The translations under genes and the position numbers were made by a program. 64,000 bases of DNA from Tubulanus polymorphus (Eukaryota > Nemertea > Palaeonemertea > Tubulaniformes > Tubulanidae): NCBI RefSeq assembly GCF_964204645.1, contig NC_134033.1:2663631-2727630 (forward strand). The letters run 5' to 3'. Below, in pieces: positions 1-49,660 of the stretch. Position 1 is the first letter of the stretch. Each line of letters opens with the position of its first letter. The notes under the pieces were generated by a model that saw only the letters and a program-made list of their open reading frames with translations, did not search any database and was not told the DNA's origin.

Positions 1-294
1 GTACTAGTAATGCCATACGCTATATGTGACTGTACGGACAAGTTGGCCATTTTGGTGTCCTCGTTAGCGCGTCGAATAAATGGCTTCAAAATCACTTTTA
101 GAGAAACCCCCATCATTTTCTTCTTTGTTAGGATACTGTGGAATATATTAGCCCGGATATTAACGTTTCCTCGACAGTGCGTTTTCTGCGTGAATTTCTT
201 TATATACGTAACAACGCTGAGAGTTTTCCGACACAAACTTGTCGGTGTTTTCCGCTGCAACTGTCGCCGAACGGTTCCGCGTCAGTCCCAGTAG
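1..294 (+). CDS. Class-A GPCR copy A, 3' end only (window edge)
   Basis: This is the last ~97 codons of a rhodopsin-like GPCR whose 5' part lies before the window. It opens in TM6 (VLVMPYAICDC, with the P6.50 equivalent), continues through the third extracellular loop, TM7 (CVFCVNFFIYVTT, an NPxxY variant reading NFFIY) and the short basic tail (HKLVGVFRCNCRR). It ends SVPVAQ-frame aside at RQSQ-stop, where the TAG comes from the tRNA-like sequence that begins the 3' flank. It matches the other copies almost base for base, so it is the preceding member of the tandem array. Whether its 5' half is intact cannot be known here. Confidence 0.88.
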   Translation, partial: VLVMPYAICDCTDKLAILVSSLARRINGFKITFRETPIIFFFVRILWNILARILTFPRQCVFCVNFFIYVTTLRVFRHKLVGVFRCNCRRTVPRQSQ

Positions 295-1425
295 CTCAGT
301 GGGGTAAGGCGAGATGCATTCACTATCAGTATTGAGCGGCATCGGGTTCGAGTTCTGCTGCCTGCTTATAGCGTGTGCGGGCTTCGAGTCCTGCTGGCTG
401 CTTATAGAGTGTGCGGGCAACACTTCGCAGACCTTGGTCCGGTCGGGATAGAATCTCGGGGGGGGGGGGGGGCAGACTTGGGAAAACCAATCCGGTGTTG
501 AATCACAAATCCAGCTTCCCATCCTAATGTAAACGATGGTAATAATTAACCCAACAGGGTTAGTGTGGTGAAATTAAGATCCAACTGACGTAAAGCGCTG
601 AGGTACAAGCAGGTTCTAGTCCTGCTGGCTGTGTACAGTGTACGGGTCCTTAATCCCATCCTGAAGGAAAACCGTGTTAAATGAACCCAACAGGGTTAGT
701 ATGTGGTGAAACCAAGATCCAACTCTAAAGCAAGATGAACTCTTATTTGAAATAAAACTTTATTAATATCACTAAAACTGTACCATTTAATCAATTCTCT
801 TCACTTGATATTAATGTTGTTGAAACTTTAAACAAGAAAACTAACTAACTCAGTTTATTGAAGCCTTGAACGATAAAATGCATTGCTTAATATTGTCGAA
901 AATGAATTACTGAGCGTTTTTGTTAAAAACAGGGCGGATTTGACGAAAATATGGTCAATATACCAGGTCTAAACCGCATCTGCGGTGCATATCGCATTCA
1001 GATTTCAATGGTCACATTTAGGTAGTGAATTTATATCGACAATTTAATGTTGTCCTAATTGCGATCGAAATTCATTTTAAAGAAGACATAGAAATTCATC
1101 AGATAGAAAATAATATTCGGGCCACATTCAGCAAGATACGACGCTCGATAATCACTAATCATTTTTTTTTTACATTTTTACACTATTCGTTTTAACGCCA
1201 CGTTACAACCAACCTTTCGGGGAGACCAACTCAAAAAATCAAACGAAATCATCGACCAATCAAATAAATTATAGGGTCAATCCGTATTTTAATATATAGA
1301 AAGAATTAGCCTTTCGTTTTTACTTCGAATCAGCAAATATGGTTTCAACAAAAAAAAACAGGTTAAACCCGAAAAGACCACGTTACAACGAACAACTGAT
1401 CTTTCTTAAAATTTTTAAGTAGTGA
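295..1425 (+). repeat. Type-1 3' flank of copy A (tRNA-derived SINE-like block plus intergenic repeat)
   Basis: No gene is seen. The block starts with a tRNA-like A box (TAGCTCAGTGGGGTAAGG) and a B box (GGGTTCGAGTTCTG), followed by a B-box-like echo (GGGCTTCGAGTCCTGCTGG) and a poly-G run at 458-472. Then comes a ~140-bp direct duplication: AACCCAACAGGGTTAGT occurs at about 550 and again at about 673 on either side of another B-box-like sequence (GGTTCTAGTCCTGCTGG). An AATAAA at ~751 is a candidate poly(A) signal. The remainder is the AT-rich array spacer. It ends at 1425, where the spacer is joined directly to the interior of GPCR copy B. Confidence 0.75.
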
Positions 1426-1957
1426 CCACGAGTTCTACTGTAGTCATTACAGTAATATTGACAACACTGTCATGGTTCAAATATACAGATCTGTTGCGGT
1501 ATTTATTCGGGATATAGTCCCGGCTTTGATTGTAGTAACAACATCAGTGGCAACTGCTAGAATTCGCCGGGGAGGTAAAACACGTATTGGCGCCTCAGTC
1601 GGCAACAGTCGTCATAAAACTGAAACCAGTAAAACACTCCTACTAATACTTCTTGTTTATCTGGTACTAGTTCTACCATACGCTATATGTGACTGTACGG
1701 ACAAGTTGGCCAGTTTGGTGTCCTCGTTAGTGCAGAAAATTAATGGCTTCAAAATCACTTTTAGAACAACCCCCATCATTTTCTTCTTTGTTAGGATGCT
1801 GTGGAATATATTAGCCCGGATATTAACGCTTCCTCGACAGTGCGTTTTCTGCGTGAATTTCTTTATATACGTAACAACGCTGAAAGTTTTCCGACACAAA
1901 CTTGTCGGTGTTTTCCGCTGTAACTGTCGCCGAACGGTTCCGAGTCAGTCCCAGTAG
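1426..1957 (+). pseudogene. GPCR copy B, 5'-truncated remnant (TM5-TM7)
   Basis: Only the 3' half of a receptor is present. The sequence jumps from upstream spacer (ending AAGTAGTGA at 1425) straight into the second extracellular loop (HEFYCSHYSN) and reads in frame through TM5 (IVPALIVVTTSVATARI), ICL3, TM6, ECL3, TM7 and the tail to SQSQ-stop. TM1-TM4, the ERF motif and the promoter-proximal leader are missing. The first ATG is at 1472 (MVQIYRSV). A receptor lacking four helices should not function as a GPCR. Exactly the same breakpoint occurs in copy H at 21,397, so the two remnants share one deletion event. The ECL2 residues resemble copy M (YHEFYCSYYS). Confidence 0.85.
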
Positions 1958-3983
1958 TCAGTGGGATAAGGCGAGATGCATTCACTATCAGTGTTGAGCG
2001 GTATCGGGTTCGAGTCCTGCTGCCTGCTTATAGTGTGTGCGGGCTTCGAGTCCTGCTGGCTGCTTATAGAGTGTGCGGGCAACACTTCGCGGACCTTGGT
2101 CCCGTCGGAATAGAATCTCGGGGGGGGGGGGCAGTCTTGGGAAAACCAATCCGGTGTTGAATCACAAATCCAGCTTCCCATCCTAATGTAAACGATAGTA
2201 ATAATTAACCCAACAGGGTTAGTGTGGTGAAATTAAGATCCAACTGACGTAAAGCGCTGAGTTACAAGCAGGTTCTAGTCCTGCTGGCTGTGTACAGTGT
2301 ACGGGGCCTTAATCCCATCCTGAAGGTAAACCGTGTTAAATGAACCCAACAGGGTTAGTATGTGGTGAAACCAAGATCCAACTCTAAAGCAAGATAAACT
2401 CTTATTTGAAATAAAACGTTATTAATATCGCTAAAACTGTACCATTTAATCAATTCTCTTCACTTGATATTAATGTTGTTGAAGCTTTAAACAAGAAAAC
2501 TAACTAGCTCAGTTTATTGAAGCCTTGAACGATAAAATGCATTGCTTAATATTGTCGAAAATGAATTACTGAGCGTTTTTGTTAAAAACAGGGCGGATTT
2601 GACGAAAATATGGTCAATATACCAGGTCTAAACCGCATCTGCGGTGCATATCGCATTCAGATTTCGATGGTCACATTTAGGTAGTGAATTTATATCGACA
2701 ATTCAATGTTGTCCTAATTGCGATCGAAATTCATTTTAAAGAAGACATAAAAATTCATCAGATAGAAAATAATATTCGGGCCACATTCAACAAGATACGA
2801 CGCTCGATAATCACTAATCATTTTTTTTTTTACATTTTTACACTATTCGTTTTAACGCCACGTTACAACCAACCTTTCGGGGAGACCAACTCAAAAAAAT
2901 CAAACGAAATCATCGACCAATCAAATAAATTATAGGGTCAATCCGTATTTTAATATATAGAAAGAATTAGCCTTTCGTTTTTACTGCGAATCAGCAAATA
3001 TGGTTTCAACAAAACAAAAACAAGTTAAACCCGAAAAGACCACGTTACAACGAACAACTGATCTTTCTTAAAATTTTTAAGTAGTGATTGACCCTGAAGT
3101 TCATTTAATTGATAGATTTCGCTTGATTTGTTTCGATTTGATCGGTGTCCCTTACAGACCCACCCACGACACCTGCCGGGAACGAAACAGGGGGTTCGAA
3201 TTAGAAATCAGCAATCGAAGTACAGATATAGTTGGCGATATATATCCGATCGGTTGTCGGATTTACAGAATTTTTTCGTTTAAATCGGAGTTCGTAATTG
3301 GAACTGGTTTAAACATGGCTCAAAACGAGAAAAATGTGGCGTTATGGCGGCTAGAAACTTTAAAACGGTTACTGAATCTTACATTCAACGCGCGCTCTTT
3401 CAGTTACTTTTTACTTTCTTGGTCATATCTCTGTAAACTAGCTGTCAATAAATTTGTTGCGAAGTTAGACATTTTTCGCGAAATGGATCCTCGGACACAC
3501 TGGTGATTCAAAGAGTTTCCGATTGCGACAACAAGAAACTAGGGTTTGGATTTTGAAAATCGATCGGAAATCGAAGCACGGATAGCTGGACGTTTTAGCA
3601 TTGGTTCTGGATATTCAAAGTTATGCTGCAGCTTTAGTAGTGAATATATATAGTTTAAATTCCTTTCATATTGTCGCATCAAACCACGAAATAGAACATG
3701 TTATATGTATATACATATTTCTGCGCGTGATTTCAAAAATAATACACGACGAGAAATATGTTCACAGTTCGTCTGTAATTTGCATGTTGCTGCATAAAGC
3801 CGACAGATTCGAAGCGCGTTCGACAACCATGTACGGAAAAAAACAGGGAGTGTCAATCTAAAGAGCTTACCGGCAGTCTGACGTGAGGGAATGAGAGAGG
3901 GAGGAGAGATATTGTAAACTCGATGCTACGTAGAACTGAATCAGTTGACGCGAAGGAGGAAAACAAGTGATTTCTCAAACGCG
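1958..3983 (+). repeat. Array spacer B-C (type-1 3' flank, then upstream block of copy C)
   Basis: No complete gene is seen. The left half is the SINE-like 3' flank (A box abutting the stop, B box GGGTTCGAGTCCTG at ~2005, poly-G at ~2120-2130, duplicated AACCCAACAGGGTTAG). The right half, from ~3080, is the upstream block shared by full-length copies. It holds an ATGGCGGCTAG-like or TTATGGCGGCTAG motif near 3345, a small conserved open frame (see findings), the AAATATGTTCACAGTTCG element, the octamer at 3778-3785, an upstream ATG at 3829 in ACCATGTACGG context, and a purine-rich GAGAGAGGGAGGAGAG leader. Confidence 0.7.
3778..3785 (+). promoter_or_regulatory. Octamer (POU/Oct-type) motif upstream of copy C
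   Basis: The sequence ATTTGCAT, the reverse complement of the octamer ATGCAAAT bound by POU-domain factors, lies ~199 bp before the ATG of copy C, inside a strongly conserved block followed by GCTGCATAAAGCC, where CATAAA could serve as a weak TATA element. It recurs at the same place upstream of copies D, E, G, I, K, L and N. Binding is inferred from the motif only. Confidence 0.5.
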
Positions 3984-5183
3984 ATGAGAAACTTTACGCT
4001 ACCGACGCGGCCGCCACCTCCGACACCGCCGCCGTTTATCATGGCTTTCGTATATTTTCTCAACGAATACAATGTTGTATGGCGCGTTAAAAACGCTGAA
4101 GTATTGTTCCTGTATCCGCTGGGAAGCGTGTTCAACTTTCTGACGATCATTTTACTGATAAAGTGTCGCAGATTTCAGTCAGTTCGTTACACGTTCCCCT
4201 ATCTCATAACTATAGCGTTTTCGGATCAACTTGTCGTATTGTTTGGTTTAAGATCATTCGCCGACACCATCGTGTTATCCATTACCCGTGGATTAGGATA
4301 CTATCCGGAATGCAAGAGTTGGACTCTACTTGGGCGTCAAAAGGGCATCGCATCATGTCCATCGATTTACTATTATTGGCATTATTTCTATCGTGTAATT
4401 GAACGGAATACTCCGGTTTGTTACATCGATAATTTGTTCAATAATCAAGCGATCACTGTGTCTAATTATATCATTGTTGTGATTTCTATTGAGAGATTTG
4501 TCTCCGTTCGTTTTCCTTTTTTTCACATGCAACATTTCACAGAAACTCGCCGTAGATTCGCCATCCTAATTGTGATCGTTTTTGCGACCGTTTTGAACTT
4601 GGATCTGCCGATAATATATCGAATTAGGTTAATAAAAAGGAATGATGGTGGCTTCTATGAGTTCTACTGTAGTTATAATGATCCTGACATTATTTTAACG
4701 GTTCAAACATACAGATCTGTTGCGGTATTTATTCGGGATATAGTCCCGGCTTTCATTGTAGTAACAACATCAGTGGCAACTGCTAGAATTCGCCGGGGAG
4801 GTAAAACACGTATTGGCGCCTCAGTCGGCAACAGTCGTCATAAAACTGAAACCAGTAAAACACTTCTACTAATAGTTCTTGTTTATCTGGTACTAGTAAT
4901 GCCATACGCTATATGTGACTGTACGAACAAGTTGGGCAGTTTGGTGTCCTTGTTAGTGCAGAGAATTAATGGCTCCAAAACCAATCGTAGAGAAACCCCC
5001 ATCATTCGATTCTTTGTTAGGATGCTGTGGAATATATTAGCCCGGATATTAACGTTTCCTCGACAGTGCGTTTTCAGCGTGAATTTCTTTATATACGTAA
5101 CAACACAGAGAGTTTTCCGACGCAAACTTGTCGGTGTTTTCCGCTGCACCTGTCGGCGAACGGTTCCGAGTCAGTCCCAGTAG
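3984..5183 (+). CDS. Class-A (rhodopsin-like) GPCR, array copy C
   Basis: A 399-aa single-exon seven-transmembrane receptor. The start is the ATG of MRNFTLP, conserved across the array and carrying an N-glycosylation sequon (N3-F-T); in-frame sequence upstream has only a TTG. TM1 ~39-60 has GSVFN (N51, position 1.50). TM2 ~70-92 has AFSDQ (D81, 2.50). TM3 ~150-174 has Cys146 exactly 25 residues before R171 of IERF (DRY equivalent). TM4 is ~192-212, ECL2 has Cys229, TM5 has P255, TM6 has P307, and TM7 has N367-FFI-Y371. ECL1 (~93-148) is about 55 residues, far longer than usual, with Cys110 and Cys125. The tail is short and basic, and the TAG stop lies in a tRNA-like A box. TM7 has S in place of C (CVFSVNFF), shared only with copy K. 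The ligand is unknown; a chemosensory or peptide receptor role is inference. Confidence 0.92.
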   Translation: MRNFTLPTRPPPPTPPPFIMAFVYFLNEYNVVWRVKNAEVLFLYPLGSVFNFLTIILLIKCRRFQSVRYTFPYLITIAFSDQLVVLFGLRSFADTIVLSITRGLGYYPECKSWTLLGRQKGIASCPSIYYYWHYFYRVIERNTPVCYIDNLFNNQAITVSNYIIVVISIERFVSVRFPFFHMQHFTETRRRFAILIVIVFATVLNLDLPIIYRIRLIKRNDGGFYEFYCSYNDPDIILTVQTYRSVAVFIRDIVPAFIVVTTSVATARIRRGGKTRIGASVGNSRHKTETSKTLLLIVLVYLVLVMPYAICDCTNKLGSLVSLLVQRINGSKTNRRETPIIRFFVRMLWNILARILTFPRQCVFSVNFFIYVTTQRVFRRKLVGVFRCTCRRTVPSQSQ

Positions 5184-7235
5184 TCAGTGGGATAAGGCGA
5201 GATGCATTCACTATCAGTGTTGAACGGCATCGGGTTCGAGTCCTACTGCCTGCTTATAGCGTGTGCGGGCTTCGAGTCCTGCTGGCTGCTCATAGAGTGT
5301 GCGGGCAACACTTCGCAGACCTTGGTCCCGTCGGGATAGAATCTCGGGGGGGGGGGGGGCAGTCTTGGGAAAACCAATCCGGTGTTGAATCACAAATCAA
5401 GCTTCCCATCCTAATGTAAACGATGGTAATAATTAACCCAACAGGGTTAGTGTGGTGAAATTAAGATCCAACTGACGTAAAGCGCTGAGTTACAAGCAGG
5501 TTCTAGTCCTGCTGGCTGTGTACAGTGTACGGGGCCTTAATCCCATCCTGAAGGTAAACCGTGTTAAATGAACCCAACAGGGTTAGTATGTGGTGAAACC
5601 AAGATCCAACTCTAAAGCAAGACAAACACTAATTTGAAATAAAACGTTATCAATATCACTAAAACTGTACCATTTAATCAATTCTCTTCACTTGATATTA
5701 ATGTTGTTGAAGCTTTAAACAAGAAAACTAACTAACTCAGTTTATTGAAGCCTTAAACGATAAAATGCATTGCTTTATATTGTCGATAATGAATAACTGA
5801 GCGTTTGTGTTAAAACAGGGGGATTAAACGAATATGATACCAGGACTCAACTACATCGGCGGTGCATGTCGTATTCAGATTTCACACTGGTTGCATTTTG
5901 GTAGTAAATTTATATCGAATATTCAATTCAATGTTGTCCTAATTGCGATCGAAATTCATCTTAAAGAGAACATAAAAATTCATCAGAAAGACAATAAGAT
6001 TCGGGCCATATTAAATAAGATACGACACTCGACCTTCACTAATCTTTTTTTTTACATTTTTACACTATTCGTTTTAACGCCACGTTAAAACCACCAACCT
6101 TTCGAGGAGACCAACTCAAACAAAAACAAACAAACGAAATCGACCGATCAAGTTATAGGGTCAATCCGTATTTTCAGATGAAGAAAATTCTAACCTATCG
6201 TTTTTTACTGCGAATTAAGAAAATATCGTTTCAATAAAAAAAACCAGGTTAAACCCGAAAAGACCACGTTACAACGAACAACTGATCTTTCTTAAAATCT
6301 TAAAGTAGTGATGAACCCTGATGTTCATTTAATTAGGTAGATTTCACTTGATTTGTTTCGATTTGATCAGTGTCCCTTACAGACCCACCCACGACAACTG
6401 CCGGGAACGAAACAGGGGGTTCGAATTAGAAATCAGCAAAGCAATCGAAGTGCAGATATAGTTGGCGATATATATCCGATCGGTTGTCGGATTTACAGAT
6501 TTTTTTCGTTTAAATCGGAGTTCGTAATTGGAACTGGTTTAAACATGGCTCAAAACGAGAAAAAATGTGGCGTCATGGCGGCTAGAAACTTTAAAACGGT
6601 TACTAAATCTTACATTCAACGAGCGCTCTTTCAGTTACTTTTTACTTACTTGGCCATATCTCTGTAAACTAACTGTCGATAAATTTGTAGCGAAGGTAGA
6701 CATTTTTCGCGAAATGGATCCTCGGACACACTGGTGGTTCAAAGAGTTTTCGATTGCGACAACAAGAAACTAAGGTTTGGATTTTGAAAATCGATCGGAA
6801 ATCGAAGCACGGATAGCTGGACGTTTTAGCATCGGTTCTGGATATTCAAAGTTATGCTGCAGCTTTAGTAGTGAATATATATAGTTTAAATTCCTTTCAT
6901 ATTGTCGCATCAAACCACGAAATAGAACATGTTATATGTATATACATATTTCTGCGCGTGATTTCAAAAATAATACACGACGAGAAATATGTTCACAGTT
7001 CGTCTGTAATTTGCATGTTGCTGCATAAAGCCGACAGATTCGAAGCGCGTTCAACAACCATGTACGGAAAAAACAGGGAGTGTCAATCTAAAGAGCTTAC
7101 CGGCAGTCTGACGTGAGGGAATGAGAGAGGGAGGAGAGATATTGTAAACTCGATGTTACGTAGAACTGAATCCGTTGACGCAAAGGAAGAAAACTTCAAG
7201 TTATTTCTCAAACGCTCGTGAGAGATTTATATACG
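5184..7235 (+). repeat. Array spacer C-D (type-1 3' flank, upstream block of copy D)
   Basis: No gene is seen. The SINE-like tRNA block starts at the stop codon, with poly-G at ~5347-5359. The duplicated AACCCAACAGGGTTAG segments follow, and AATAAA at 5638-5643 is the likely poly(A) signal of copy C. From ~6300 the copy-D upstream block contains the ATGGCGGCTAG motif (~6575), the octamer (7009-7016), a short upstream ORF (7060-7116, 18 codons, ACCATGTACGG context) and a GA-rich leader. Confidence 0.7.
7009..7016 (+). promoter_or_regulatory. Octamer motif upstream of copy D
   Basis: ATTTGCAT lies ~220 bp before the start of copy D in the same conserved context (TCGTCTGTA-octamer-GTTGCTGCATAAAGCC) as in the other copies. 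Confidence 0.5.
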
Positions 7236-8492
7236 ATGAGAAATTTTACGCTGCAGCCGCTACCGCAGCTACTACCGACACGACAGCTACTACCGACACG
7301 ACAGCTACTACCGACACGGCAACCACCTTCGCTGCCGCCGCCGTTTATCAGGGCTTTCGATAAATTTCTCAACGAATACAATGTTTTAATACGCGTTGAT
7401 ATCGCCGAAGTATTGTTCCTGTATCCGTTAGGAAGCGTGTTCAACTTTCTGACAATCATTTTACTGATAAAGTGTCGCAGATATCAGTCAGTTCGTTACA
7501 CGTTCCCCTATCTCATAACACTAGCGTTTTCGGATCAACTTGTCGTGTTGTTTGGTTTAAGATCATTCGCTCACACCATTGTGTTAAACATAACCCGTGG
7601 ATTAGGATACTATCCGGAATGTAAAAGTTGGACACTACTTTTGCGTCAAAAGGGCGTCGCATCATGTCCATCGATTTACTATTATTGGCATTATTTCTAT
7701 CGTGTAATTGAACGGTATACTCCGGTTTGTTACATCGATAATTTGTTCAAAAATCAAGCGATCACTGTGTCTAATTATATCATTGTTGTGATTTCTATCG
7801 AGAGATTTGTCTCCGTTCGTTTTCCTTTTTTTCACATGCAACATTTCACAGAAACACGACGTAGATTCGCCGTAATAATTGTAGTCGCTTTTGCCTTCAT
7901 TTTAAACTTGGATTTACCGATGTTTAATCGAATTAGGTTATCAAAGATTGGCTTATACTTATGTAGGTATAATAATCCCGACAACACTCTCATGGTTCAA
8001 ACATACAGATCTGTTGCGGTATTTATTCGGGATATAGTCCCGGCTTTGATTGTAGTAATAACATCAGTGGCAACTGCTAGAATTCGCCGGGGAGGTAAAA
8101 CACGTATTGGCGCCTCAGTCGGCAACAGTCGTCATAAAACTGAAACCAGTAAAACACTTCTACTAATAGTTCTTGTTTATCTGTTACTAGTAATGCCATA
8201 CGCTATATGTGACTGTACGAACAAGTTGAGCAGTTTGGTGTCCTCGTTAGTGTATAGAATTAATGGCTTTGAAATCACTTTTAGAACAACCCCGATCATT
8301 TTCTTCTTTGTTAGGATGCTGTGGGATATATTAGCCCAGATATTAACGCTTCCTCGACAGTGCGTTTTCTGCGTGAATTTCTTTATATACGTAACAACGC
8401 TGAGAGTTTTTCGACGCAAACTTGTCGGTGTTTTCCGCTGTAACTGTCGCCGAACGATTCTGAGTCAGTCCCGCGGTAGCTCAGCGGGATAA
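7236..8492 (+). CDS. Class-A GPCR, array copy D (N-terminal LLPTRQ repeats)
   Basis: A 418-aa intronless receptor beginning MRNFTLQPLPQ. The extracellular N-terminus carries three tandem copies of an 18-nt repeat encoding LLPTRQ (7269-7322) before the conserved proline stretch. TM1 GSVFN, TM2 AFSDQ, TM3 ISIERF, TM5 IVPALIVVITSV, TM6 VMPYAICDC and TM7 CVNFFIYV are all present. ECL1 is of the SWTLLLRQKGVASCP type. ECL2 is shortened (RLSKIGLYLCRYNN), as in copies G and N. The 3' end reads into a type-2 flank (SQSRGSSAG-stop): the tRNA-like GCGGTAGCTCAGCGGGATAAG is translated for several codons until its TAA. An in-frame GTG at 7218 was not chosen because the ATG at 7236 is conserved. Confidence 0.92.
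   Translation: MRNFTLQPLPQLLPTRQLLPTRQLLPTRQPPSLPPPFIRAFDKFLNEYNVLIRVDIAEVLFLYPLGSVFNFLTIILLIKCRRYQSVRYTFPYLITLAFSDQLVVLFGLRSFAHTIVLNITRGLGYYPECKSWTLLLRQKGVASCPSIYYYWHYFYRVIERYTPVCYIDNLFKNQAITVSNYIIVVISIERFVSVRFPFFHMQHFTETRRRFAVIIVVAFAFILNLDLPMFNRIRLSKIGLYLCRYNNPDNTLMVQTYRSVAVFIRDIVPALIVVITSVATARIRRGGKTRIGASVGNSRHKTETSKTLLLIVLVYLLLVMPYAICDCTNKLSSLVSSLVYRINGFEITFRTTPIIFFFVRMLWDILAQILTLPRQCVFCVNFFIYVTTLRVFRRKLVGVFRCNCRRTILSQSRGSSAG
7269..7322 (+). repeat. Coding 18-bp minisatellite, three units, in copy D
   Basis: Three near-perfect tandem units of CTACTACCGACACGACAG encode LLPTRQ in the receptor's extracellular N-terminus. Copy G (16,756-16,809) has three units and copy N (43,584-43,655) has four, each with the last unit ending LLPTRP, so unit number varies between paralogues. 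Confidence 0.9.
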
Positions 8493-9802
8493 GGCGACGA
8501 TTCCCTTAAAAAGTCCTAAGCTTTGTTCGTATATGGACGATTCCACACTCTGTAGGAAGGTCGAAACATTGTCTCTGTTTCATTACAAGTTAGAAGAAAT
8601 ATTTCCATTTAAAAAGCGAGCGTGAAGTAAAAAATGCAGTGAAAACAACATTTGCCGGTCAAAAATGGTTGCGCTTTAAAACAAACAGAAATCCTACTTA
8701 CCAAACAATGATTATTGCCAACGACCTTCAGACTTCTGTGCGCACTTCCTTTTATGGTTTCCAGATTCAGTTGATGAGATAATCCCGAGTCTAATTTCCT
8801 CAAGTTATGGATGGAAAACGTTAGCGAACTTTAAAAATGTATATTCCGATAAGGTAACTCGCTTGTCGTGTGGACTGAAGACCGCGGGAACAACATTGAA
8901 TAACACCGCGTCAAAATAACTATATTCGAAATTGAGAACACTGAAATTGTAGGCGTGATTCAAGAAGTCGTCAGTTGTTTTCAATCGCTCTCATGTCGCG
9001 TAGTTGCAAATTAGCGAAATGAATTTCATCTCCCTGAAAACTAGACATTAACGCGATTTTGAATGCGACCAGTTTGAAAATAGTTTTAAAAATCGATCTC
9101 GGGACCTATGAAATATAAATAAACACGTGGTACAAATATTTTCTCAAAAGAAACGGCACAACAAACAGGGTCTTGTTCGACAGTCATGAGTAAGAGTTAA
9201 CTCTGAGTTAAAATCAGTTCATTTTCAATGAGTTAACTCTGAGTCAGGTACTGAATCCAGGACAGAAGTACCCTAACAAAATGGCGGCTAGTAATTGGTT
9301 ACTAAAACTTATATCCAATGCGCGCTCATTCAAATACTTTTTCCTTACTTGGCTATCTCTATCTAAACTGTCTGTACATTTGTTGCGAGCGTCAATTTTA
9401 TTTCAAAACACCATATTATACGTTTTAGGAAGGACAGTGTTCTGTGTCGTGGTTCGTGTAGTTGAATGCAGCGGTGAAGGATATATGAGGGACTGGTACA
9501 AAGTGACCGGTCACCTGTTTATTGTAATAATGCGACAAACACGACCGAGCATCTGGCGAAACGTCCAGTGTGGCGAAAACGCGGCCGATTTTAAAAATCG
9601 CGAAAACATCTCTAAAAATTGTCAAGTCAGATTATCGAATCAAATAAACAAAGTTCTACAAGATTATTCTCAATATTTCAGGTATATTGATTATAAATCA
9701 ATTTTCAACCACGTGTGACCGTTATAACGACAGTTGGGATAACATCAATCACGACAGATCATTCAGATGTCACCCGATGCCTCGAAGCGAAATTGATGAC
9801 AA

Positions 9803-40287: not shown

Positions 40288-41511
40288 ATGAGAAACTTGA
40301 CGCTGCCGTCGTTACCAACGCCCCCTGCAACACGGCCGCTACCTGCGTCGCCACCTCAGTTTATCAGGGCTTTCTTACATTTTCTCCATGAATACAATGT
40401 TGTATGGCGCGTTAAAATCGCTGAAGTATTGTTCATATATCCGCTGGGAAGCGTGTTCAACTTTCTGACAATCATTTTACTGATAAAGTGTCGCAGATAT
40501 CAGTCAGTTCGTTACACGTTCCCCTATCTCATAACTCTAGCGTTTTCGGATCAACTTGTCGTGTTGTTTGGTTTAAGATCATTCGCTCACACCATCGTGT
40601 CAACCATAACCCGTGGATTAGGATACTATCCGGAATGTAAAAGTTGGACTCTACTTGGGCGTCAAAAGGGCATCGCATCATGTCCATCGATTTACTATTA
40701 TTGGCATTATTTCTATCGAGTAATTGAACGGTATACTCCAGTTTGTTACATCGATAATTTGTTTAAAAATCAATCGATCACTGTGTCTAATTATATCATT
40801 GTTGTGATTTCTATCGAGAGATTTGTCTCCGTTCGTTTTCCTTTTTTTCACATGAAACATTTCACCGTAACTCGCCGTAGATTCGCCGTAATAATTGTAG
40901 TCGCTTTTGCCGTCATTTTAAACTTGGATTTACCGATATTCAATAGAATTAGGTTATCAAAAAGGCGTAATGGTGGCTACCACGAGTTCTACTGTAGTTA
41001 TTATAGCAATCGTGACAACGCTGTCATGATTCGTACATACAGATCTGTTGCGGTATTTATTCGGGATATAGTCCCGGTTTTGATTGTAGTTACAACATCA
41101 GTGGCAACTGCTAGAATTCGCCGGGGAGGTAAAACACGTATTGGCGCCTCAGTCGGCAACAGTCGTCATAAAACTGAAACCAGTAAAACACTTCTACTAA
41201 TAGTTCTTGTTTATCTGGTACTAGTAATGCCATACGCTATATGTGACTGTTGGGACAAGTTGTACAATTTGGTGTTCTCGTTAGTGCGTCGATTAAATGG
41301 CTTTGAAATCACTCCTACAGAAACCCCCATCGTTTTCTTTTTTGCTATAATGCTGTGGAATATATTAGCCAAGATATTAACGTTTCCTCGACAGTGCGTT
41401 TTCTGCGTGAATTTCTTCATATACGTAACAACGCTGAGAGTTTTCCGACACAAACTTGTCGGTGTTTTACGCTGTAACTGTCGCCGAACGATTCTGAGTA
41501 AGTCCCAGTAG
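40288..41511 (+). CDS. Class-A GPCR, array copy M
   Basis: A 407-aa intronless receptor starting MRNLTLPSLPTPPATRP (sequon N3-L-T). Motifs are GSVFN, AFSDQ, Cys before ISIERF, IVPVLIVVTTSV, VMPYAICDC and CVNFFIYV. It combines the common SWTLLGRQKGIASCP ECL1 with a distinctive ECL2 (RLSKRRNGGYHEFYCSYYSN) and ECL3 (NGFEITPTETPIVFF). The TM7 entry is MLWNILAKILTFP. The ECL2 is the closest intact match to truncated copies B and H. An out-of-frame ATG lies 7 nt before the start (ATGTACGATGAG), which could reduce initiation. It ends SKSQ-stop, with TAG in the tRNA-like block. Confidence 0.92.
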   Translation: MRNLTLPSLPTPPATRPLPASPPQFIRAFLHFLHEYNVVWRVKIAEVLFIYPLGSVFNFLTIILLIKCRRYQSVRYTFPYLITLAFSDQLVVLFGLRSFAHTIVSTITRGLGYYPECKSWTLLGRQKGIASCPSIYYYWHYFYRVIERYTPVCYIDNLFKNQSITVSNYIIVVISIERFVSVRFPFFHMKHFTVTRRRFAVIIVVAFAVILNLDLPIFNRIRLSKRRNGGYHEFYCSYYSNRDNAVMIRTYRSVAVFIRDIVPVLIVVTTSVATARIRRGGKTRIGASVGNSRHKTETSKTLLLIVLVYLVLVMPYAICDCWDKLYNLVFSLVRRLNGFEITPTETPIVFFFAIMLWNILAKILTFPRQCVFCVNFFIYVTTLRVFRHKLVGVLRCNCRRTILSKSQ

Positions 41512-43550
41512 TCAGTGGGATAAGGCGAGATGCATTCACTATCAGTGTTGAGCGGTATCGGGTTCGAGTCCTGCTGCCTGCTTATAGCGTGTGCGGGCTT
41601 CGAGTCCTGCTGGCTGCTTATAGAGTGTGCAGCAACACTTCGCAGACCTTGGTCCCGTCGGGATAGAATCTCAGGGGGGGGGGGGCAGACTTGGGAAAAC
41701 CAATCCGGTGTTGAATCACAAATCCAGCTTCCCATCCTAATGTAAACGATGGTAATAATTAACCCAACAGGGTTAGTGTGGTGAAATTAAGATCCAACTG
41801 ACGTAAAGCGCTGAGTAACAAGCAGGTTCTAGTCCTGCTGGCTGTGTACAGTGTACGGGGCCTTAATCCCATCCTGAAGGTGAAACCATGATAAATGAAC
41901 CCAACAGGGTTAGTTTGTGGTAAAACCAAGATCCAACTCTAAAGCAAGACAAACACTAATTTGAAATAAAACGTTATTAATATCACTAAAACTGTACCAT
42001 TTAATCAATTCTCTTCACTTGATATCAATGTTGTTGAAGCTTTAAACAAGAAAACTAACTAACTCAGTTTATTGAAGCCTTGAACGATAAAATGCATTGC
42101 TTTATATTGTCGATAATGAATAACTGAACGTTTGTGTTAAAACACGGAGGATTAAACGAATATCATACCAGGACTCAACCGCATCCGCGGTGCATATTTC
42201 ACTGATCACATTTAGGTAGTAAATATATATCGACAATTTAATGTTGTCTTAATTGCGATCGAAATTCATTTTAAAGAAGAAATAAAAATTCACCAGATAG
42301 AAAATAAGGATCGGGCCACATCAAAAAAGATACGACACTCGATATTCATCATTCATTTTTTTGTTTACATTTTGTACTTTTCGTGTTAACGCCACGTTAC
42401 AACCAACCTTTCGGGGAGACCAACTCAAACAAAAACAAACAAACGAAATCGACCAATCAAATAAGTTATAGGGTCAATCAGTATTTTCAGATAAAGAAAA
42501 TTCTAACCTATCGTTTTTTACTGCGAATTAAGAAAATATGGTTTCAACAAAAAAAAACAGGTTAAACCCGAAAAGACCACGTTACAACGAACAACCGATC
42601 TTTCTTAAAATCTTAAAGTAGTGATTGACCCTGAAGTTCATTTAATTAGGTTCACTTGATTTGTTTCGATTTGATCAGTGTCCCTTACAGACCCACCCAC
42701 GACAACTGCCGGGAACGAAACAGGGGGTTCGAATTAGAAATCAGCAATCGAAGTACAGATATAGCTGGCGATATATATCCGATCGGTTGTCGAATTTACA
42801 GATTTTTTTCGTTTAAATCGGAGTTCGTAATTGGAACTGGTTTAAACATGGCTCAAAACGAGAAAAATGTGGCGTTATGGCGGCTAGAAACTTTAAAACG
42901 GTTACTGAATCTTACATTCAACGAGCGCTCTTTCAGTTACTTTTTACTTACTTGGTCATATCTCTGTAAACTAACTGTCGATAAATTTGTAGCGAAGGTA
43001 GACATTTTTCGCGAAATGGATCCTCGGACACACTGGTGGTTCAAAGAGTTTTCGATTGCGACAACAAGAAACTAGGGTTTGGATTTTGAAAATCGATCGA
43101 AAATCGAAGCACGGATAGCTGGATGTTTTAGCATTGGTTCTGGATATTCAAAGTTATGCTGCAGCTTTAGTAGTGAATATATATAGTTTAAATTTCTTTC
43201 ATATTGTCGCATCAAACCACGAAATAGAACATGTTATATGTATATACATATTTCTGCGCGTGATTTCAAAAATAATACACGACGAGAAATATGTTCACAG
43301 TTCGTCTGTAATTTGCATGTTGCTGCATAAAGCCGACAGATTCGAAGCGCGTTCAACAACCATGTACGGAAAAAACAGGGAGTGTCAATTTAGAGAGCTT
43401 ACCGGCAGTCTGACGTAAGGGAGTGAGAGAGGGAGGAGAGAGGAAGTAGAGAGTTGGAGAGAGAGAGGGAGAGAGAGAGGAAGGAGAGAGAGATGGCAGA
43501 GTGAGGGAGAGATATCGTAAACTCGTAAACGCTCGTGAGATTTATATACG
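41512..43550 (+). repeat. Array spacer M-N (type-1 flank, upstream block of copy N)
   Basis: SINE-like tRNA block (B box ~41,566, poly-G ~41,674-41,684), duplicated AACCCAACAGGGTTAG, and spacer. The upstream block runs from ~42,620 with ATGGCGGCTAG at ~42,877, octamer 43,311-43,318 and a long GA-rich tract (~43,420-43,512). Compared with copy G, about 60 nt of leader between the GA tract and the ATG have been lost. Confidence 0.7.
43311..43318 (+). promoter_or_regulatory. Octamer motif upstream of copy N
   Basis: ATTTGCAT lies ~233 bp before the copy-N ATG in the conserved context. Confidence 0.5.
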
Positions 43551-44813
43551 ATGAGAAATTTTACGCTGTCGCCACTACCGCAGCTACTACCGACACGACA
43601 GCTACTACCGACACGACAGCTACTACCGACACGACAGCTACTACCGACACGGCCGCCACCTTCGCTGCCAATGCCGCAGTTTATCAGGGCTTTCAATAAA
43701 TTTCTCTACGAAAACAATGTTTTTAGGCGCGTTGATATCGCTGAAGTATTGTTCCTGTATCCGCTGGGAAGCGTGTTCAACTTTCTGACGATCATTTCAC
43801 TGATAAAGTGTCGCAGATATCAGTCGGTTCGTTACACGTTCCCCTATCTCATAACACTAGCGTTTTCGGATCAACTTGTCGTGTTGTTTGGTTTAAGGAA
43901 ATTCGCGAACACCATTGTGTCAATCCTAACCCGTGGATTAGGATACTATCCGGAATGTAAAAGTTGGACTCTACTTGGGCGTCAAAAGGGCATCGCATCA
44001 TGTCCATCGATTTACTATTATTGGCATTATTTCTATCGTGTAATTGAACGGTATACTCCGGTTTGTTACATCGAGAATTTGTTCAATAATCAAGCGATCA
44101 CTGTGTCTAATTATATCATTGTTGTGATTTCTATCGAGAGATTTGTCTCCGTTCGGTTTCCTTTTCTTCACATGCAACATTTCACTGGAACTCGACGTAG
44201 ATTTGCCGTAATAATTGTAGTCGTTTTTGCAACCATTTTAAACTTGGATTTACCGATATTTAATCGAATTAGGTTATCAACGATTGGCTTATACTTATGT
44301 AGTTATAATAATCCCGACAACACTCTCATGGTTCGTACATACAGATCTGTTGCGGTATTTATTCGGGATATAGTCCCGGCTTTCATTGTATTAACAACAT
44401 CAGTGGCAACTGCTAGAATTCGCCGTGGAGGTAAAACACGTATTGGCGCCTCAGTCGGCAACAGTCGTCATAAAACTGAAACCAGTAAAACACTTCTACT
44501 AATAGTTCTTGTTTATCTGTTACTAGTAATGCCATACGCTACATGTGACTGTACGGACAAGTTGAGCAGTTTGGTGCCCTTGTTGGTGCGTCGAATAAAT
44601 GGCTTCAAAATCACTTTTAGAACAACCCCCATCATTTTCTTCTTTGTTAGGATACTGTGGAATATATTAGCCCGGATATTAACGCTTCCTCGACAATGCG
44701 TTTTCTGCGTGAATTTCTTTATATACGTAACAACGCTGAGAGTTTTCCGACACAAACTTGTCGGTGTTTTCCGCTGTAACTGTCGCCGAACGATTCCGAG
44801 TCAGTCCCAGTAG
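43551..44813 (+). CDS. Class-A GPCR, array copy N (four N-terminal repeats)
   Basis: A 420-aa intronless receptor starting MRNFTLSPLPQ followed by four LLPTRQ/P units (43,584-43,655), one more than its close relative copy G. Core motifs are all present (GSVFN, AFSDQ, ISIERF, IVPAFIVLTTSV, VMPYATCDC, CVNFFIYV). It shares with G the RFPFLHMQHF loop, short ECL2 (RLSTIGLYLCSYNN), RKFANTIVSILTRG loop and ATCDC. The G/N pair is thus a recent duplicate in which the minisatellite has changed length. It ends SQSQ-stop in the tRNA-like block and has a type-1 flank. Confidence 0.92.
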   Translation: MRNFTLSPLPQLLPTRQLLPTRQLLPTRQLLPTRPPPSLPMPQFIRAFNKFLYENNVFRRVDIAEVLFLYPLGSVFNFLTIISLIKCRRYQSVRYTFPYLITLAFSDQLVVLFGLRKFANTIVSILTRGLGYYPECKSWTLLGRQKGIASCPSIYYYWHYFYRVIERYTPVCYIENLFNNQAITVSNYIIVVISIERFVSVRFPFLHMQHFTGTRRRFAVIIVVVFATILNLDLPIFNRIRLSTIGLYLCSYNNPDNTLMVRTYRSVAVFIRDIVPAFIVLTTSVATARIRRGGKTRIGASVGNSRHKTETSKTLLLIVLVYLLLVMPYATCDCTDKLSSLVPLLVRRINGFKITFRTTPIIFFFVRILWNILARILTLPRQCVFCVNFFIYVTTLRVFRHKLVGVFRCNCRRTIPSQSQ

Positions 44814-46860
44814 TCAGTGGGATAAGGCGAGATGCATTTACTATCAGTGTTGAGCGGTATCGGGTTCGAGTCCTGCTGCCTGCAGCGTGTGCGGGCTTCG
44901 AGTCCTGCTGGCTGCTTATAGAGTGTGCGGGCAACACTTCGCGGACCTTGGTCCCGTCGGGATAGAATCTCGGGGGGGGGGGGCAGTCTTGGGAAAACCA
45001 ATCCGGTGTAGAATCACAAATCCATCTTCCCATCCTAATGTAAACGATGGTAATAATTAACCCAACAGGGTTAGTGTGGTGAAATTAAGATCCAACTGAC
45101 GTAAAGCGCTGAGTTACAAGCAGGTTCTAGTCCTGCTGGCTGTGTACAGTGTACGGGGCCTTAATCCCATCCTGAAGGTAAACCGTGTTAAATGAAACCA
45201 ACAGGGTTAGTATGTGGTGAAACCAAGATCCAACTCTAAAGCAAGATAAACTCTTATTTGAAATAAAACGTTATTAATATCGCTAAAACTGTACCATTTA
45301 ATCAATTCTCTTCACTTGATATTAATGTTGTTGAAGCTTTAAACAAGAAAACTAACTAACTCAGTTTATTGAAGCCTTGAACGATAAAATGCATTGCTTA
45401 ATATTGTCGAAAATGAATTACTGAGCGTTTTTGTTAAAAACAGGGCGGATTTGACGAAAATATGGTCAATATACCAGGTCTAAACCGCATCTGCGGTGCA
45501 TATCGCATTCAGATTTCAATGGTCACATTTAGGTAGTGAATTTATATCGACAATTCAATGTTGTCCTAATTGCGATCGAAATTCATTTTAAAGAAGACAT
45601 AAAAATTCATCAGATAGAAAATAATATTCGGGCCACATTCAACAAGATACGACGCTCGATAATCACTAATCATTTTTTTTTTTACATTTTTACACTATTC
45701 GTTTTAACGCCACGTTACAACCAACCTTTCGGGGAGACCAACTCAAAAAATCAAACGAAATCATTGACCAATCAAATAAATTATAGGGTCAATCCGTATT
45801 TTAATATATAGAAAGAATTAGCCTTTCGTTTTTACTGCGAATCAGCAAATATGGTTTCAACAAAAAAAAAACAGGTTAAACCCGAAAAGACCACGTTACA
45901 ACGAACAACTGATCTTTCTTAAAATTCTTAAGTAGTGATTGACCCTGAAGTTCATTTAATTGATAGATTTCGCTTGATTTGTTTCGATTTGATCGGTGTC
46001 CCTTACAGACCCACCCACGACACCTGCCGGGAACGAAACAGGGGGTTCAAATTAGAAATCAGCAATCGAAGTACAGATATAGTTGGCGATATATATCCGA
46101 TCGGTTGTCGGATTTACAGAATTTTTTCGTTTAAATCGGAGTTCGTAATTGGAACTGGTTTAAACATGGCTCAAAACGAGAAAAATGTGGCGTTATGGCG
46201 GCTAGGAACTTTAAAACGGTTACTGAATCTTACATTCAACGCGCGCTCTTTCAGTTACTTTTTACTTACTTGGCCATATCTCTGTAAACTAGCCGCCAAT
46301 AAATTTGTTGCGAAGTTAGACATTTTTCGCGAAATGGATCCTCGGACACTGGTGGTTCAATGAGTTTTCGATTGCGACAACAAGAAACTAGGGTTTGGAT
46401 TTTGAAAATCGATCGAAAATCGAAGCACGGATAGCTGGATGTTTTAGCATTGGTTCTAGACTGGATATTCAAAGTTAGGCTGCAGCTTTAGTAGTGAATA
46501 TATATAGTTTAAATTCCTTTCATATTGTCGCGTCAAACCACGAAATACATACATATACATTTATTACATGTATATACATGTTACATGTATATACATATTT
46601 CTGCGCGTGATTTCAAAAATAATACACGACGAGAAATATGTTCACAGTTCGTCTGTAATGTGCGTATTGCTGCATAAAGCCGACAGATTCGAAGCGCATT
46701 CAACAACCATGTACAAACAGGGAGTGTCAATCTGAAGAGCTTACCGGAGGAGAGAGGCAGGAGAGATATCGTAAACTCGATGTAACATAGAACTGAATCA
46801 GTTGACGCGAAGGAGGAAAACTTCAAGTTAATTCTCAAGCGCTCGTGAGATTAATTTACG
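44814..46860 (+). repeat. Array spacer N-O (type-1 flank, upstream block of copy O)
   Basis: SINE-like tRNA block with poly-G (~44,970-44,981), duplicated AACCCAACAGGGTTAG, and spacer almost identical to 1,958-3,080 and 20,271-21,396. The upstream block follows, with GTTATGGCGGCTAGG at ~46,192 and the octamer position altered to ATGTGCGT (~46,658). The upstream ATG is kept (ACCATGTACAAAC). Confidence 0.7.
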
Positions 46861-48072
46861 ATGAGAAATTTAACCCTAACCCCGCTACCTCCGCCACGTC
46901 CAGTTCCACTGCTGCAGTTTATCCGGGCGTTCGCGCAATTTTTCCGTGATAACGGTGTTTATAGACGCATGGATTTTGCTAAAGCATTGTTCCTGTATCC
47001 GCTGGGAAGCGTGTTCAACTTTCTGACAATCATTTTACTGATAAAGTGTCGCAAATATCAGTCGGTTCGTTACACGTTCCCCTATCTCATAACACTAGCG
47101 TTTTCGGATCAACTTGTCGTGTTGTTTGGTTTAAGAACATTCGCTGTAACCATCAGGACATTGGTTATCTACGAATTAGGATATCATCCGGAATGTAAGA
47201 GTCGGATGGTGTTTGAAAGTAAAGAGGCAAGTGCATTATGTCCATCGATTTACTATTACTGGTATTATTTCTATAGTGTAATAGAACGGAATATTCCGAT
47301 ATGTTACATCGAGAATTTGTTCAATAATCAAGCGATCACTGTGTCTAATTATATCATTGTTGTGATTTCTATCGAGAGATTTGTCTCCGTTCGTTTTCCA
47401 TTTTTTCACATGAAAAATTTCACCGCAACTAACCGTAGATATGCCCTAATAATTGTGGTCGTTTTTGCAATCATTTTGAACTTAGATCTACCGATATTCA
47501 ATAGAATTAGGTTAGTAAAAACAATTTATGGTGGCTACGATGTGTTCTCCTGTAGTCATAGTAGTTTTAATTTCGACATCATTGTCGTGATTCGTACATA
47601 CAGATCTGTTGCGGTATTTATTCGGGATATAGTCCCGGTTTTGATTGTAGTAACGACATCAGTAGCAACTGCTACAATTCGCCGGGGAGGTAAAACACGT
47701 ATTGGCGCCTCAGTCGGCAACAGTCGTCATAAAACTGAAACCAGTAAAACACTTCTACTAATAGTTCTTGTTTATCTGGTACTAGTAATGCCATACGCTA
47801 TATGTGAATGTTGGAACAATTTGTTCCATTTGGTGTTCTCGTTATCGATTATGATTAATCGCTTCGTAATCACTCCTACAGAAAACCCCATCATTTTCTT
47901 CTTTGTTTTAACGTTGTGGAACACATTATCCAATATGTTAACACTTCCTCGACAGTGCGTTTTCTGCGTGAATTTCTTTATATACGTAACAACGCTGAGA
48001 GTTTTCCGACACAAACTTGTCGGTGTTTTCCGCTGTAGTCCGCTTGTCAGTCCCAGTAGCTCAGTGGGATAA
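46861..48072 (+). CDS. Class-A GPCR, array copy O (last and most divergent)
   Basis: A 403-aa intronless receptor starting MRNLTLTPLPPPRPVP (sequon N3-L-T). Motifs are GSVFN, AFSDQ, Cys before ISIERF, IVPVLIVVTTSV, VMPYAICEC and CVNFFIYV. ECL1 is of the MVFESKEASALCP type with its own YELGYHPECKSR; ECL2 is RLVKTIYGGYDVFSCSHSS. ECL3 and the TM7 entry are the most divergent in the array (SIMINRFVITPTENPIIFF, TLWNTLSNMLTLP). ICL2 is MKNFTATNRR and ICL3 has ATATIRRGG (T for R). The tail is FRCSPLVSPSSSVG-stop, related to copy J. This is the last receptor of the array. Confidence 0.91.
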   Translation: MRNLTLTPLPPPRPVPLLQFIRAFAQFFRDNGVYRRMDFAKALFLYPLGSVFNFLTIILLIKCRKYQSVRYTFPYLITLAFSDQLVVLFGLRTFAVTIRTLVIYELGYHPECKSRMVFESKEASALCPSIYYYWYYFYSVIERNIPICYIENLFNNQAITVSNYIIVVISIERFVSVRFPFFHMKNFTATNRRYALIIVVVFAIILNLDLPIFNRIRLVKTIYGGYDVFSCSHSSFNFDIIVVIRTYRSVAVFIRDIVPVLIVVTTSVATATIRRGGKTRIGASVGNSRHKTETSKTLLLIVLVYLVLVMPYAICECWNNLFHLVFSLSIMINRFVITPTENPIIFFFVLTLWNTLSNMLTLPRQCVFCVNFFIYVTTLRVFRHKLVGVFRCSPLVSPSSSVG

Positions 48073-49352
48073 GGCGACGATTCCCTTCAAAAATACTGTT
48101 TGTATAAGGACGATTCCGCCTACTGTACGGCGGTCGAAACATTGTCCCTGTTTCATATAAGACTGAAGAAATATTTCAATTCAAAAAAACGAGCGTGAAG
48201 TAAAAAATGCAGTGAAATTCATCATTTGCCGATCGAAAAATAGAAACTCTACTTACCAAACAATCATCAATTGCCAACAACTTTCAGACTTCCGCGCGCA
48301 TTTCCTTTTATGGTTTCCGGATTCAGTTGATGAGATAATCCCGAGTCTAATTCCTCAAGTTATGGATAGAAAACGCGAGCGAACTTTAAACATGTATATT
48401 CCGATATGTTAAATCGCTTGTCGTGTGGACTGAACACCGCGAGAACAACATTGCATAACACCGCGTCAGAATAACTATATTCGAAGTTGAGAACACTGAA
48501 ATTGTACGCGTGATTTTAAGAAGTTGTTAGTTTTTTCAATCGCTCTCATGTTGAATAATTGCAAATTTGTGAAATGAATTTCATATCCCTGAAAACTAGA
48601 GATTAACGCGGTTTTGCATGTGACCAGTTTGAAAATAGTTTTTTAAATCGATCTCGGGACCGATGAAATAAATATGAAGCAACTCGTGACACAAATATTT
48701 TCTTAAAAGAAACGGCCCAAAAAACAGGGTCCAGTTCGACAGTCATGAGTTAGAGTTAACTCTGAGTTAAATAAAGTCAGTTCATTTTCAATGAGTTAAC
48801 TCTGAGCCAGGTACTGGATCAAGGACAATATACCCTAACAAAAGGCGGCTAGCAACTTGATTGAAAATGGTTACAAAAACTTATATCCAATGCGCGCTCA
48901 TTCAAATACTTACTTGGCCATCTCTATCTAAACTGTCTGTACATTTGTTGCGAGGTTCCAGTTAATCGCAAAACGTCATAAACGTTCTAGGAAGGACAGT
49001 GTTCTGTGTCGTGGTTCGTGTAGTTGAATGCAGCGGTGAAGGATATATGAGGGACTGGTACAAAGTGACCGGTGACCTGTTTATTGTAATAATGCGACAA
49101 ACACGACCGAGCATCTGGCGAAACCCAGTGTGGTGAAAACGCGGCCGATTTCAAAATCGTGAAAACATTAAAAATTGTCAATTCAAATTTATTTGTCCAC
49201 TAAAGAGAAACATGTGCTGCAAGATACTCAATATTTCCGGCGTATTGATTACAAATCAATTTTCGACCATGTGCGGCAACGACTGTTGGTAACGTTGAAC
49301 GCGACAGATCATTCAGATGTGACAAAAAGTTTCCATTCGATCGTGGCAAGAA

Positions 49353-49536
49353 GCCTCCATAGCTCAGGGGTTAGAGCACTGGACCCAGTTCCACAGTTGT
49401 GAGTTAAGATTTGACTCTGAGTTAACTCATTGAAAATGAACTAATTTCAACTCAGAGTTAACTCTAACTCACAACTGTGGAACTGGATCCTGGTCTTGTA
49501 AACCAGGGGTCGAGAGTTCAAATCTCTCTGGGGGCA
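49353..49536 (+). pseudogene. tRNA-Thr split by a 108-bp palindromic element
   Basis: The tRNA-Thr 5' part (49,353-49,382, through GAGCACTGG) and 3' part (49,491-49,536, TGGTCTTGTAAACC to GGGGGCA) are each perfect copies. A palindromic element is inserted in the anticodon stem, with TGG duplicated on both sides. The mature cloverleaf cannot form unless the hairpin is removed, so it is treated as inactivated. Confidence 0.88.
49383..49490 (+). mobile_element. Palindromic MITE inside tRNA-Thr
   Basis: A 108-bp element whose ends are inverted repeats: the left end CCCAGTTCCACAGTTGTGAG is matched by the right end CTCACAACTGTGGAACTGG. The interior GAGTTAACTC motifs and TCATTGAAAATGA are also palindromic. 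Related sequence appears in all type-2 flanks (for example ~9,190-9,262) and at 61,207-61,289, so this is a family of small non-autonomous DNA elements. Confidence 0.85.
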
Positions 49537-49660
49537 TGGCTCCAAACATTTTTGCAAAATCGATCCTCGGAAAAGCCGATCAGAAATCGAAGCGCGTATA
49601 GTTGGATGGATTGGTTCTGCATACTCAAAGTTTTGCCGCAGCTTCCGAGTCAGTCCCAGG

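Follow-up and report, generated by a model that had tools for sequence, protein, structure and literature searches.

A tandem array of intronless rhodopsin-like receptors in the nemertean Tubulanus polymorphus combines old-looking extracellular loops with a probably homogenised signalling core

We analysed a 64,000-nucleotide stretch of the genome of Tubulanus polymorphus (the window), located at C9:2663631-2727630 in an assembly of 267.8 Mb and 77 contigs (GCF_964204645.1; C9, the contig holding the window, is NC_134033.1). It carries a tandem array of intronless genes for G-protein-coupled receptors (GPCRs). Within a single gene of this array, segments of 70-200 bp look either old or young, largely along the divide between outer surface and signalling core. 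Conversion or unequal exchange between copies probably homogenises the core and the flanks, while selection keeps old, divergent versions of the loops in place, forming a 'peak of divergence'. The two marks of a conversion array with selected peaks are both found here: paralogues recombine, and synonymous divergence changes from segment to segment. According to theory, divergence persists under frequent conversion around sites where selection keeps copies different (PMC3924837), an argument made in the cited reports for the gibbon L/M opsins (PMC3213168) and for copepod GOT1 (PMC3728101).

Fifteen GPCR gene bodies, all on the plus strand, were located at window positions 1-48072 by tblastn with one copy as the query. 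Ten are intact and five partial or broken (two broken, two 3' halves and one copy of which the window includes just the 3' end). The copies, named here by their start positions (Table 1), are single-exon, run head to tail and mostly lie about 3.2 kb apart; the ten intact open reading frames (ORFs) encode 399-440 amino acids and align with the 40288 copy at 74-86% identity. The array extends to the left past the first base of the window, with matches over C9:2601448-2711669. A first-pass annotation, made from the letters of the window, had described about 15 tandem single-exon copies, which agrees with this inventory. The layout has the features of chemosensory receptor arrays, being tandem, intronless, many-copy and pseudogene-bearing; tandem clusters are described as widespread among chemoreceptors, many of them intronless, in a review (PMC11526382).

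Differences among the proteins are concentrated on the outer side. With helix and loop limits set from motifs and hydropathy, 166 of the 381 gap-free columns are variable among the ten intact copies: 102/149 extracellular, 52/178 helical, 8/41 intracellular and 4/13 C-terminal. Three or more different residues occur in 73 columns, and 63 of these lie on the extracellular side. The transmembrane helices TM3, TM5, TM6 and TM7 vary little, the exceptions among the helices being TM1 (12/27 columns variable) and TM4 (12/22). The annotation had placed the diversity exclusively on the extracellular side; the enrichment there stands, but strict confinement does not, since TM1 and TM4 vary. It had also called the third intracellular loop (ICL3) nearly uniform, and a single one of its 22 columns is variable.

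Synonymous divergence was counted at those codons where the two genes of a pair encode an identical amino acid; the statistics for the C9 array refer to the window genes, except in the four-gene check and the cross-contig comparisons below. It reached 0.243 in the extracellular regions (bootstrap 0.189-0.300) and 0.218 in TM1/2/4 with ICL1/2, against 0.044 (0.026-0.064) in the core, defined as TM3, TM5-ICL3-TM6 and TM7. The contrast between core and extracellular regions held when boundaries were shifted by up to 8 residues. In 20-residue windows, values were 0.05 at 151-180, 0-0.08 at 251-320 and 0.05 from 361, and up to 0.36 in between. Fourfold-degenerate sites with an invariant residue were variable at 9/56 positions in the core and 23/40 elsewhere (Fisher p 3e-5), a count that leaves out 6 C-terminal sites, and the longest synonymously invariant run spanned 27 columns (permutation p 0.003). 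Four genes of C9 that lie entirely or largely beyond the window gave 0.219, 0.188 and 0.053 for the same three regions over 6 pairs, a check that is not independent because three of them are near-copies, in part or whole, of window genes.

The non-coding flanks provide a yardstick for these values. The 3' flanks of the intact copies are of at least two types, and in pairwise BLAST comparisons more than 500 bp of 3' flank could be aligned in 13 of 45 pairs, the other 32 being dropped. For these 13 pairs, divergence was 0.062 in the flank, 0.046 at core synonymous sites and 0.256 at extracellular synonymous sites. The extracellular value exceeded that of the flank in 13/13 pairs and the core value did so in 3/13. 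Judged by this yardstick, the core changes as non-coding flanking DNA does, and the apparent age of the loops is about four times greater.

Recombination among the copies received strong statistical support. The pairwise homoplasy index (PHI) was 0.360, compared with a permuted mean of 0.440 (z -11.4), and none of 2000 permutations reached the observed value. PHI is somewhat liberal on these data, with 10% of recombination-free simulations at p < 0.05, but the minimum z among 60 such simulations with the observed rate pattern was -2.1. In approximately unbiased (AU) tests, 26 of 30 cross-block topologies were rejected at 0.05; of the four that were not, two combine TM3 data with the tree of the third extracellular loop (ECL3) or of TM7 to the C-terminus, and two combine the ICL2-ECL2 tree with the data of TM5-6 or of ECL3. 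The broken copy 31831 is a mosaic, differing in ECL1 by 3.9% from 16723/43551, in ECL2 by 2.2% from 3984 and in ECL3 by 2.4% from 3984/10477, with a TM3 identical to that of 35022.

Purifying selection alone, including synonymous constraint from an overlapping element, RNA structure or codon use, might have been thought to account for the identity of core and ICL3. Inside the array ICL3 and TM6 are almost free of synonymous change, the intracellular loops have a low ratio of non-synonymous to synonymous rates (omega, dN/dS) of 0.26, and TM5 has low synonymous divergence (0.22-0.28) even in comparisons with and among dispersed relatives. Yet between C9 and three dispersed relatives on contig C7 the synonymous divergence of the entire core is 0.429, close to the 0.444 of TM1/2/4 with ICL1/2; of the parts of the core, ICL3 reaches 0.49, TM6 0.55 and TM5 0.22. 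Given this divergence, constraint on synonymous sites was rejected as a complete explanation. Dual coding within the core was rejected as well, since both other plus-strand frames and all three antisense frames hold stops over it in 10/10 copies. Free divergence from C7 and closed alternative frames together indicate that the core is not under general synonymous constraint and is homogenised inside the C9 array, where it diverges at synonymous sites about as much as the non-coding 3' flank does. We therefore regard purifying selection alone as very unlikely.

Selection on the protein was estimated by maximum likelihood (ML) under the Goldman-Yang (GY) model with F3X4 codon frequencies. In the C9 array, omega was 1.00 for ECL1-3, 0.56 for the helices and 0.26 for the intracellular loops. 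It was below 1 in TM1/2/4 with ICL1/2 (0.42, p 1e-6 vs 1), in the N-terminus (0.47, p 3e-4) and in ECL1 (0.59, p 0.03), while the core, at 0.66, was indistinguishable from 1 (p 0.12; 0.05-0.19 under other models). ECL3 exceeded 1 under four frequency models, significantly in three (2.05, p 0.004; 1.67, p 0.033; 2.20, p 0.002). In the array on contig C6, where 11 of 20 sequences were used after removal of those at least 97% identical, omega was 1.34 for the extracellular loops (p 0.037 vs 1), 1.77 for ECL2 (p 0.028), 1.81 for ECL3 (p 0.021) and 0.57 for the helices (p 2e-5), with p values uncorrected for several tests. An elevated omega in ECL2-3 is common to the two arrays; strong homogenisation of the core is peculiar to C9.

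These values bear on the first-pass reading of the locus as a ligand-diversifying cluster, for which it had proposed a comparison of dN/dS between loops and helices. The ratio is indeed uneven in both arrays, which agrees with that reading. The uniform segments of that description are not mainly the product of purifying selection, because the core is near-identical at synonymous sites too and its omega of 0.66 is not distinguishable from 1. More generally, the usual equation of conserved helices with purifying selection can mislead where copies convert each other.

An ordinary birth-and-death family, in which the loops are under relaxed constraint and the core is similar through recent duplication of whole units, would fit the five broken or partial copies among 15 and the very recent duplication of many units that the locus carries. 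Duplication of whole units gives a single age, however, and here, for the same pairs of genes, synonymous divergence varies about fivefold from one segment to another; the block trees conflict, and an omega above 1 in the C6 extracellular loops speaks against mere relaxation. We consider this account unlikely.

Several results weigh against homogenisation of the core with selected retention of the loops. The core grouping was chosen after the region results of the counting method had been seen. The grouping fixed beforehand (extracellular vs TM and ICL) gave a ratio of 2.2 that was reached in 0/5000 column permutations but in 26/380 circular shifts, which is not significant, and the variance of synonymous variability along the gene was borderline (295/5000). 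TM1/2/4 lie outside the extracellular regions and yet appear as old as the loops, unlike TM3, a difference for which this reading does not account. Other loci show the contrast less clearly: the C6 array has hardly any synonymous peak (extracellular 0.138, TM1/2/4 with ICL1/2 0.135, core 0.104; 190 pairs), and four genes on C12 have a mild one (0.283, 0.126 and 0.182, respectively; 6 pairs). Comparisons with and among the dispersed C7 genes gave 0.66 extracellular vs 0.39-0.43 in the core, with TM5 at 0.22-0.28. The C12 and C7 gradients indicate that a weak general gradient exists besides homogenisation. On the side of selection, the ECL3 excess depends on the model (1.37, p 0.19 in the fourth, and 1.00 by NG86 counting), and recombination biases omega tests such as this one. 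In C6, omega differs from 1 neither for the N-terminus with the extracellular loops (1.17, p 0.19) nor for ECL1 (1.31, p 0.31), and that of the intracellular loops is 1.24 (p 0.84) on very few changes (tree length 0.16). Omegas from the counting method overlap between extracellular (0.60, 0.46-0.77) and TM regions (0.41, 0.27-0.61) in C9. Of the remaining loci, the C33 relatives share part of the pattern (core 0.084, extracellular 0.323), and the C7 array shows 0.050 extracellular vs 0.055 in the core (3 pairs). The fivefold contrast is particular to C9, and part of it may belong to the general trend.

The weaker gradient outside C9 slightly lowered our confidence in homogenisation with selected loops and raised it in targeted hypermutation of the loops, which would increase synonymous and non-synonymous changes alike. 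Both dN and dS are elevated in the loops, the C9 extracellular loops have an omega of about 1, and the C12 and dispersed C7 genes also have somewhat more synonymous change outside the core. We nevertheless disfavour hypermutation as quite unlikely. Variable sites are shared between copies (informative) more often in the extracellular loops (116/193) than in the core (19/45), a difference that fits old versions and was not tested statistically; the C6 loops show hardly any synonymous rise; and TM1/2/4 with ICL1/2 are as divergent synonymously as the loops yet under purifying selection.

In the reading we prefer, homogenisation with selected retention, ectopic gene conversion or unequal crossing over would move DNA between neighbouring copies and thereby keep the signalling core (TM3, TM5-ICL3-TM6 and TM7), together with the 3' flanks, young and near-identical. 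Selection would act against conversion tracts that overwrite loop differences, so that the N-terminus, ECL1, TM4-ECL2 and ECL3 would retain old versions and form a selected recognition surface on a shared chassis. Exchange within the array could also recombine old loop versions into new combinations. The copies may couple to the same G protein through their common ICL3 and TM5-6 and may recognise different extracellular ligands, with peptides, proteins or other cues that contact the surface as the most likely candidates. A sensory or recognition role, possibly chemosensory, would fit this arrangement. Since TM3/5/6/7, the variable surfaces of mammalian olfactory receptors (ORs), hardly differ among the copies, peptides, proteins or similar ligands that touch the outer surface appear likelier than small odorants. 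A long ECL1 with a stretch between cysteines and a little-varying TM pocket likewise suggest peptide or protein cues rather than odorants. There is also a small chance that the TM5-ICL3-TM6 and TM3 blocks are themselves recombination platforms that shuffle loops, making the array a combinatorial generator of recognition surfaces on a fixed chassis and not a small-molecule odorant set; if so, it would serve the recognition of peptides, symbionts or self/non-self.

The receptors belong to a larger family of the rhodopsin class. All five copies scanned matched Pfam 7tm_1 (E 1e-10 to 8.9e-15, 42-55 bits, cut-off 30.5), as the annotation's assignment to rhodopsin-like receptors had implied. Signature residues, in the generic numbering (1.50 etc.), were scored in 43 family members from five contigs: 10 in the window, 3 on C33, 3+3 on C7, 20 on C6 and 4 on C12. 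All 43 have N3 of the N-terminus, D2.50, C3.25, E3.49-R3.50, C45.50, P6.50, N7.49 and Y7.53, and N1.50 and P5.50 occur in 42 and 41; N1.50, D2.50, R3.50, P5.50, P6.50 and the NFxxY motif had all been listed correctly in the first pass. The family departs from the CWxP and NPxxY motifs, with V at 6.48 in 43/43 and F at 7.50 in 40/43 members; W6.48 and P7.50 are common but not obligatory in class A. Three cysteines are invariant in 43/43 members. The span from D2.50 to C3.25, 65 residues, is long for class A, and within ECL1 the cysteines C117 (38/43) and C132 (43/43) enclose a variable stretch. Nematode Srsx was rejected as an assignment, one of five copies matching below the Pfam cut-off (19.4 bits vs 24.1). 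The NFxxY and ERF motifs would make the FMRFamide-receptor-like peptide GPCRs a candidate relationship. No chain in the PDB matched the family profile at E<=0.01, and a single-copy query gave weak matches (best E 0.017). An AlphaFold model from 10 similar rows had a mean pLDDT of 36.6, too poor for use of the fold. No encoded relative was found among viral contigs, genome contigs and phage records, collections that do not hold animal genomes as such.

Across the T. polymorphus genome, a one-copy query matched at least 104 places at E<=1e-3 (102 of 1,022 candidates scored), a count that includes both halves of the duplication described below and some genes in two pieces. A C12 member as the query gave 102 places, including new ones on C10 and C12. 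Arrays were found on C6, C7, C10, C12 and C33, and less compact groupings on C5 and C8; the C6 array has 20 intact family ORFs in 60 kb of the minus strand (C6:257749-314413). In sampled stretches, 48 of 50 ORFs of at least 330 amino acids matched the family profile.

The features of the window are collected in Table 1.

Table 1 Features of the receptor array, in window positions
Feature	Position	Strand	Basis
GPCR 3' end; open 380-aa gene starts left of the window	1..294	+	tblastn
GPCR 3' half, ECL2 onwards, truncated	1400..1957	+	tblastn
Intact GPCR, 399 aa	3984..5183	+	ORF and alignment
Intact GPCR, 418 aa; N-terminal 18-bp repeat (LLPTRQ)	7236..8492	+	ORF and alignment
Intact GPCR; alignment makes 10477 the likely start, the frame's earliest ATG being at 10441	10477..11697	+	
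Broken GPCR copy, interruption in ECL2	13608..14760	+	tblastn
Intact GPCR, 414 aa	16723..17967	+	ORF and alignment
GPCR 3' half	21371..21928	+	tblastn
Intact GPCR, 403 aa	24936..26147	+	ORF and alignment
Intact GPCR, 440 aa	28720..30042	+	ORF and alignment
Broken GPCR copy, mosaic	31831..33017	+	tblastn
Intact GPCR, 401 aa	35022..36227	+	ORF and alignment
Intact GPCR, 407 aa; reference for residue numbering	40288..41511	+	ORF and alignment
Intact GPCR, 420 aa	43551..44813	+	ORF and alignment
Intact GPCR, 403 aa	46861..48072	+	ORF and alignment
Homogenised core TM5-ICL3-TM6 of the reference copy, 213 bp	41035..41247	+	intact pairs differ 0.5-5.6% in DNA
Right-hand copy of tandem segmental duplication, period about 50.9 kb	1..49181	+	99.82% identity

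In the two 3' halves, similarity starts at the identical residue, 232, in ECL2. The segmental duplication, which carries the array, pairs C9:2612702-2661883 with 2663631-2712811 at 27 mismatches over 49,212 aligned positions; it may reflect a recent duplication or an assembly artefact such as a haplotype represented twice. The 18-bp in-frame repeat encoding LLPTRQ lies in a proline-rich N-terminus at 7266-7318, 16752-16807 and 43581-43651, in 2.9-3.9 copies, and varies among paralogues. Other elements occur among and beside the genes. A reverse transcriptase (18327-20273, minus strand; a 648-aa stop-to-stop frame, RVT_1 1e-36) lies in the interval that separates gene 16723 from a truncated copy. 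Five tRNA-Thr(TGT) genes are predicted, at 9803-9875, 16061-16133, 28132-28199, 31245-31317 and 52890-52962, four of them between array genes, and a 36-bp tandem unit lies 3' of seven gene copies, with what we take to be a tRNA B-box-like motif. Four tRNA-His(GTG) genes are predicted in 54918-59089, three with identical Rfam scores. An inverted repeat around 'gacccagttccacagttgtgagttaa', spotted by eye at about 49380-49491, resembles a foldback element. In a Pfam scan of 10 further window ORFs, none scored above the cut-off. The observed/expected ratio of CpG over the whole window is 1.28, unusual for animal genomes with CpG methylation and suggestive of a genome that lacks it.

Known systems share parts of this pattern. 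The expanded nematode srz family resembles the C9 array in its extracellular diversity but is a separate Pfam family with no conserved potential disulfide (PMC2576165), unlike the present family with its three invariant cysteines; the term 'gene conversion' does not occur in the main text of that paper. The ApORs of the crown-of-thorns starfish, as reported in PMC5442662, are also rhodopsin-class receptors arrayed in tandem, their helices conserved and their extracellular loops divergent. Their ICL3 shows almost no similarity, however, their C-terminus is divergent and the genes lie in both orientations, whereas here ICL3 is the most conserved part and all 15 copies share one strand. Primate L/M opsins are tandem GPCR duplicates homogenised by conversion except near functional sites (PMC3213168, PMC3924837), but they are two genes in which mainly introns are homogenised; the present array has 10 intact copies without introns, and homogenisation affects their coding stretches and flanks. 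Mammalian ORs and V1Rs are likewise tandem intronless arrays with conversion mosaics and pseudogenes (PMC1995454, PMC11526382), conversion among V1Rs being inferred in PMC2644715; in contrast to TM3/5/6/7 here, the hypervariable residues of the ORs lie on TM3-7 surfaces (PMC1995454). Our literature search for this pattern in chemoreceptor arrays was limited, and a paper describing it may still exist. The kind of system is already known, from srz, starfish ORs and opsin-type conversion, and the C9 array is a clear new example, its point of interest being the sharp segmental ages inside an intronless GPCR. Such a pattern flags residues that selection keeps different without recourse to functional data, and here it supplies loop positions in an orphan GPCR family with about 100 places in the genome. 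The array offers an unusually clean natural experiment.

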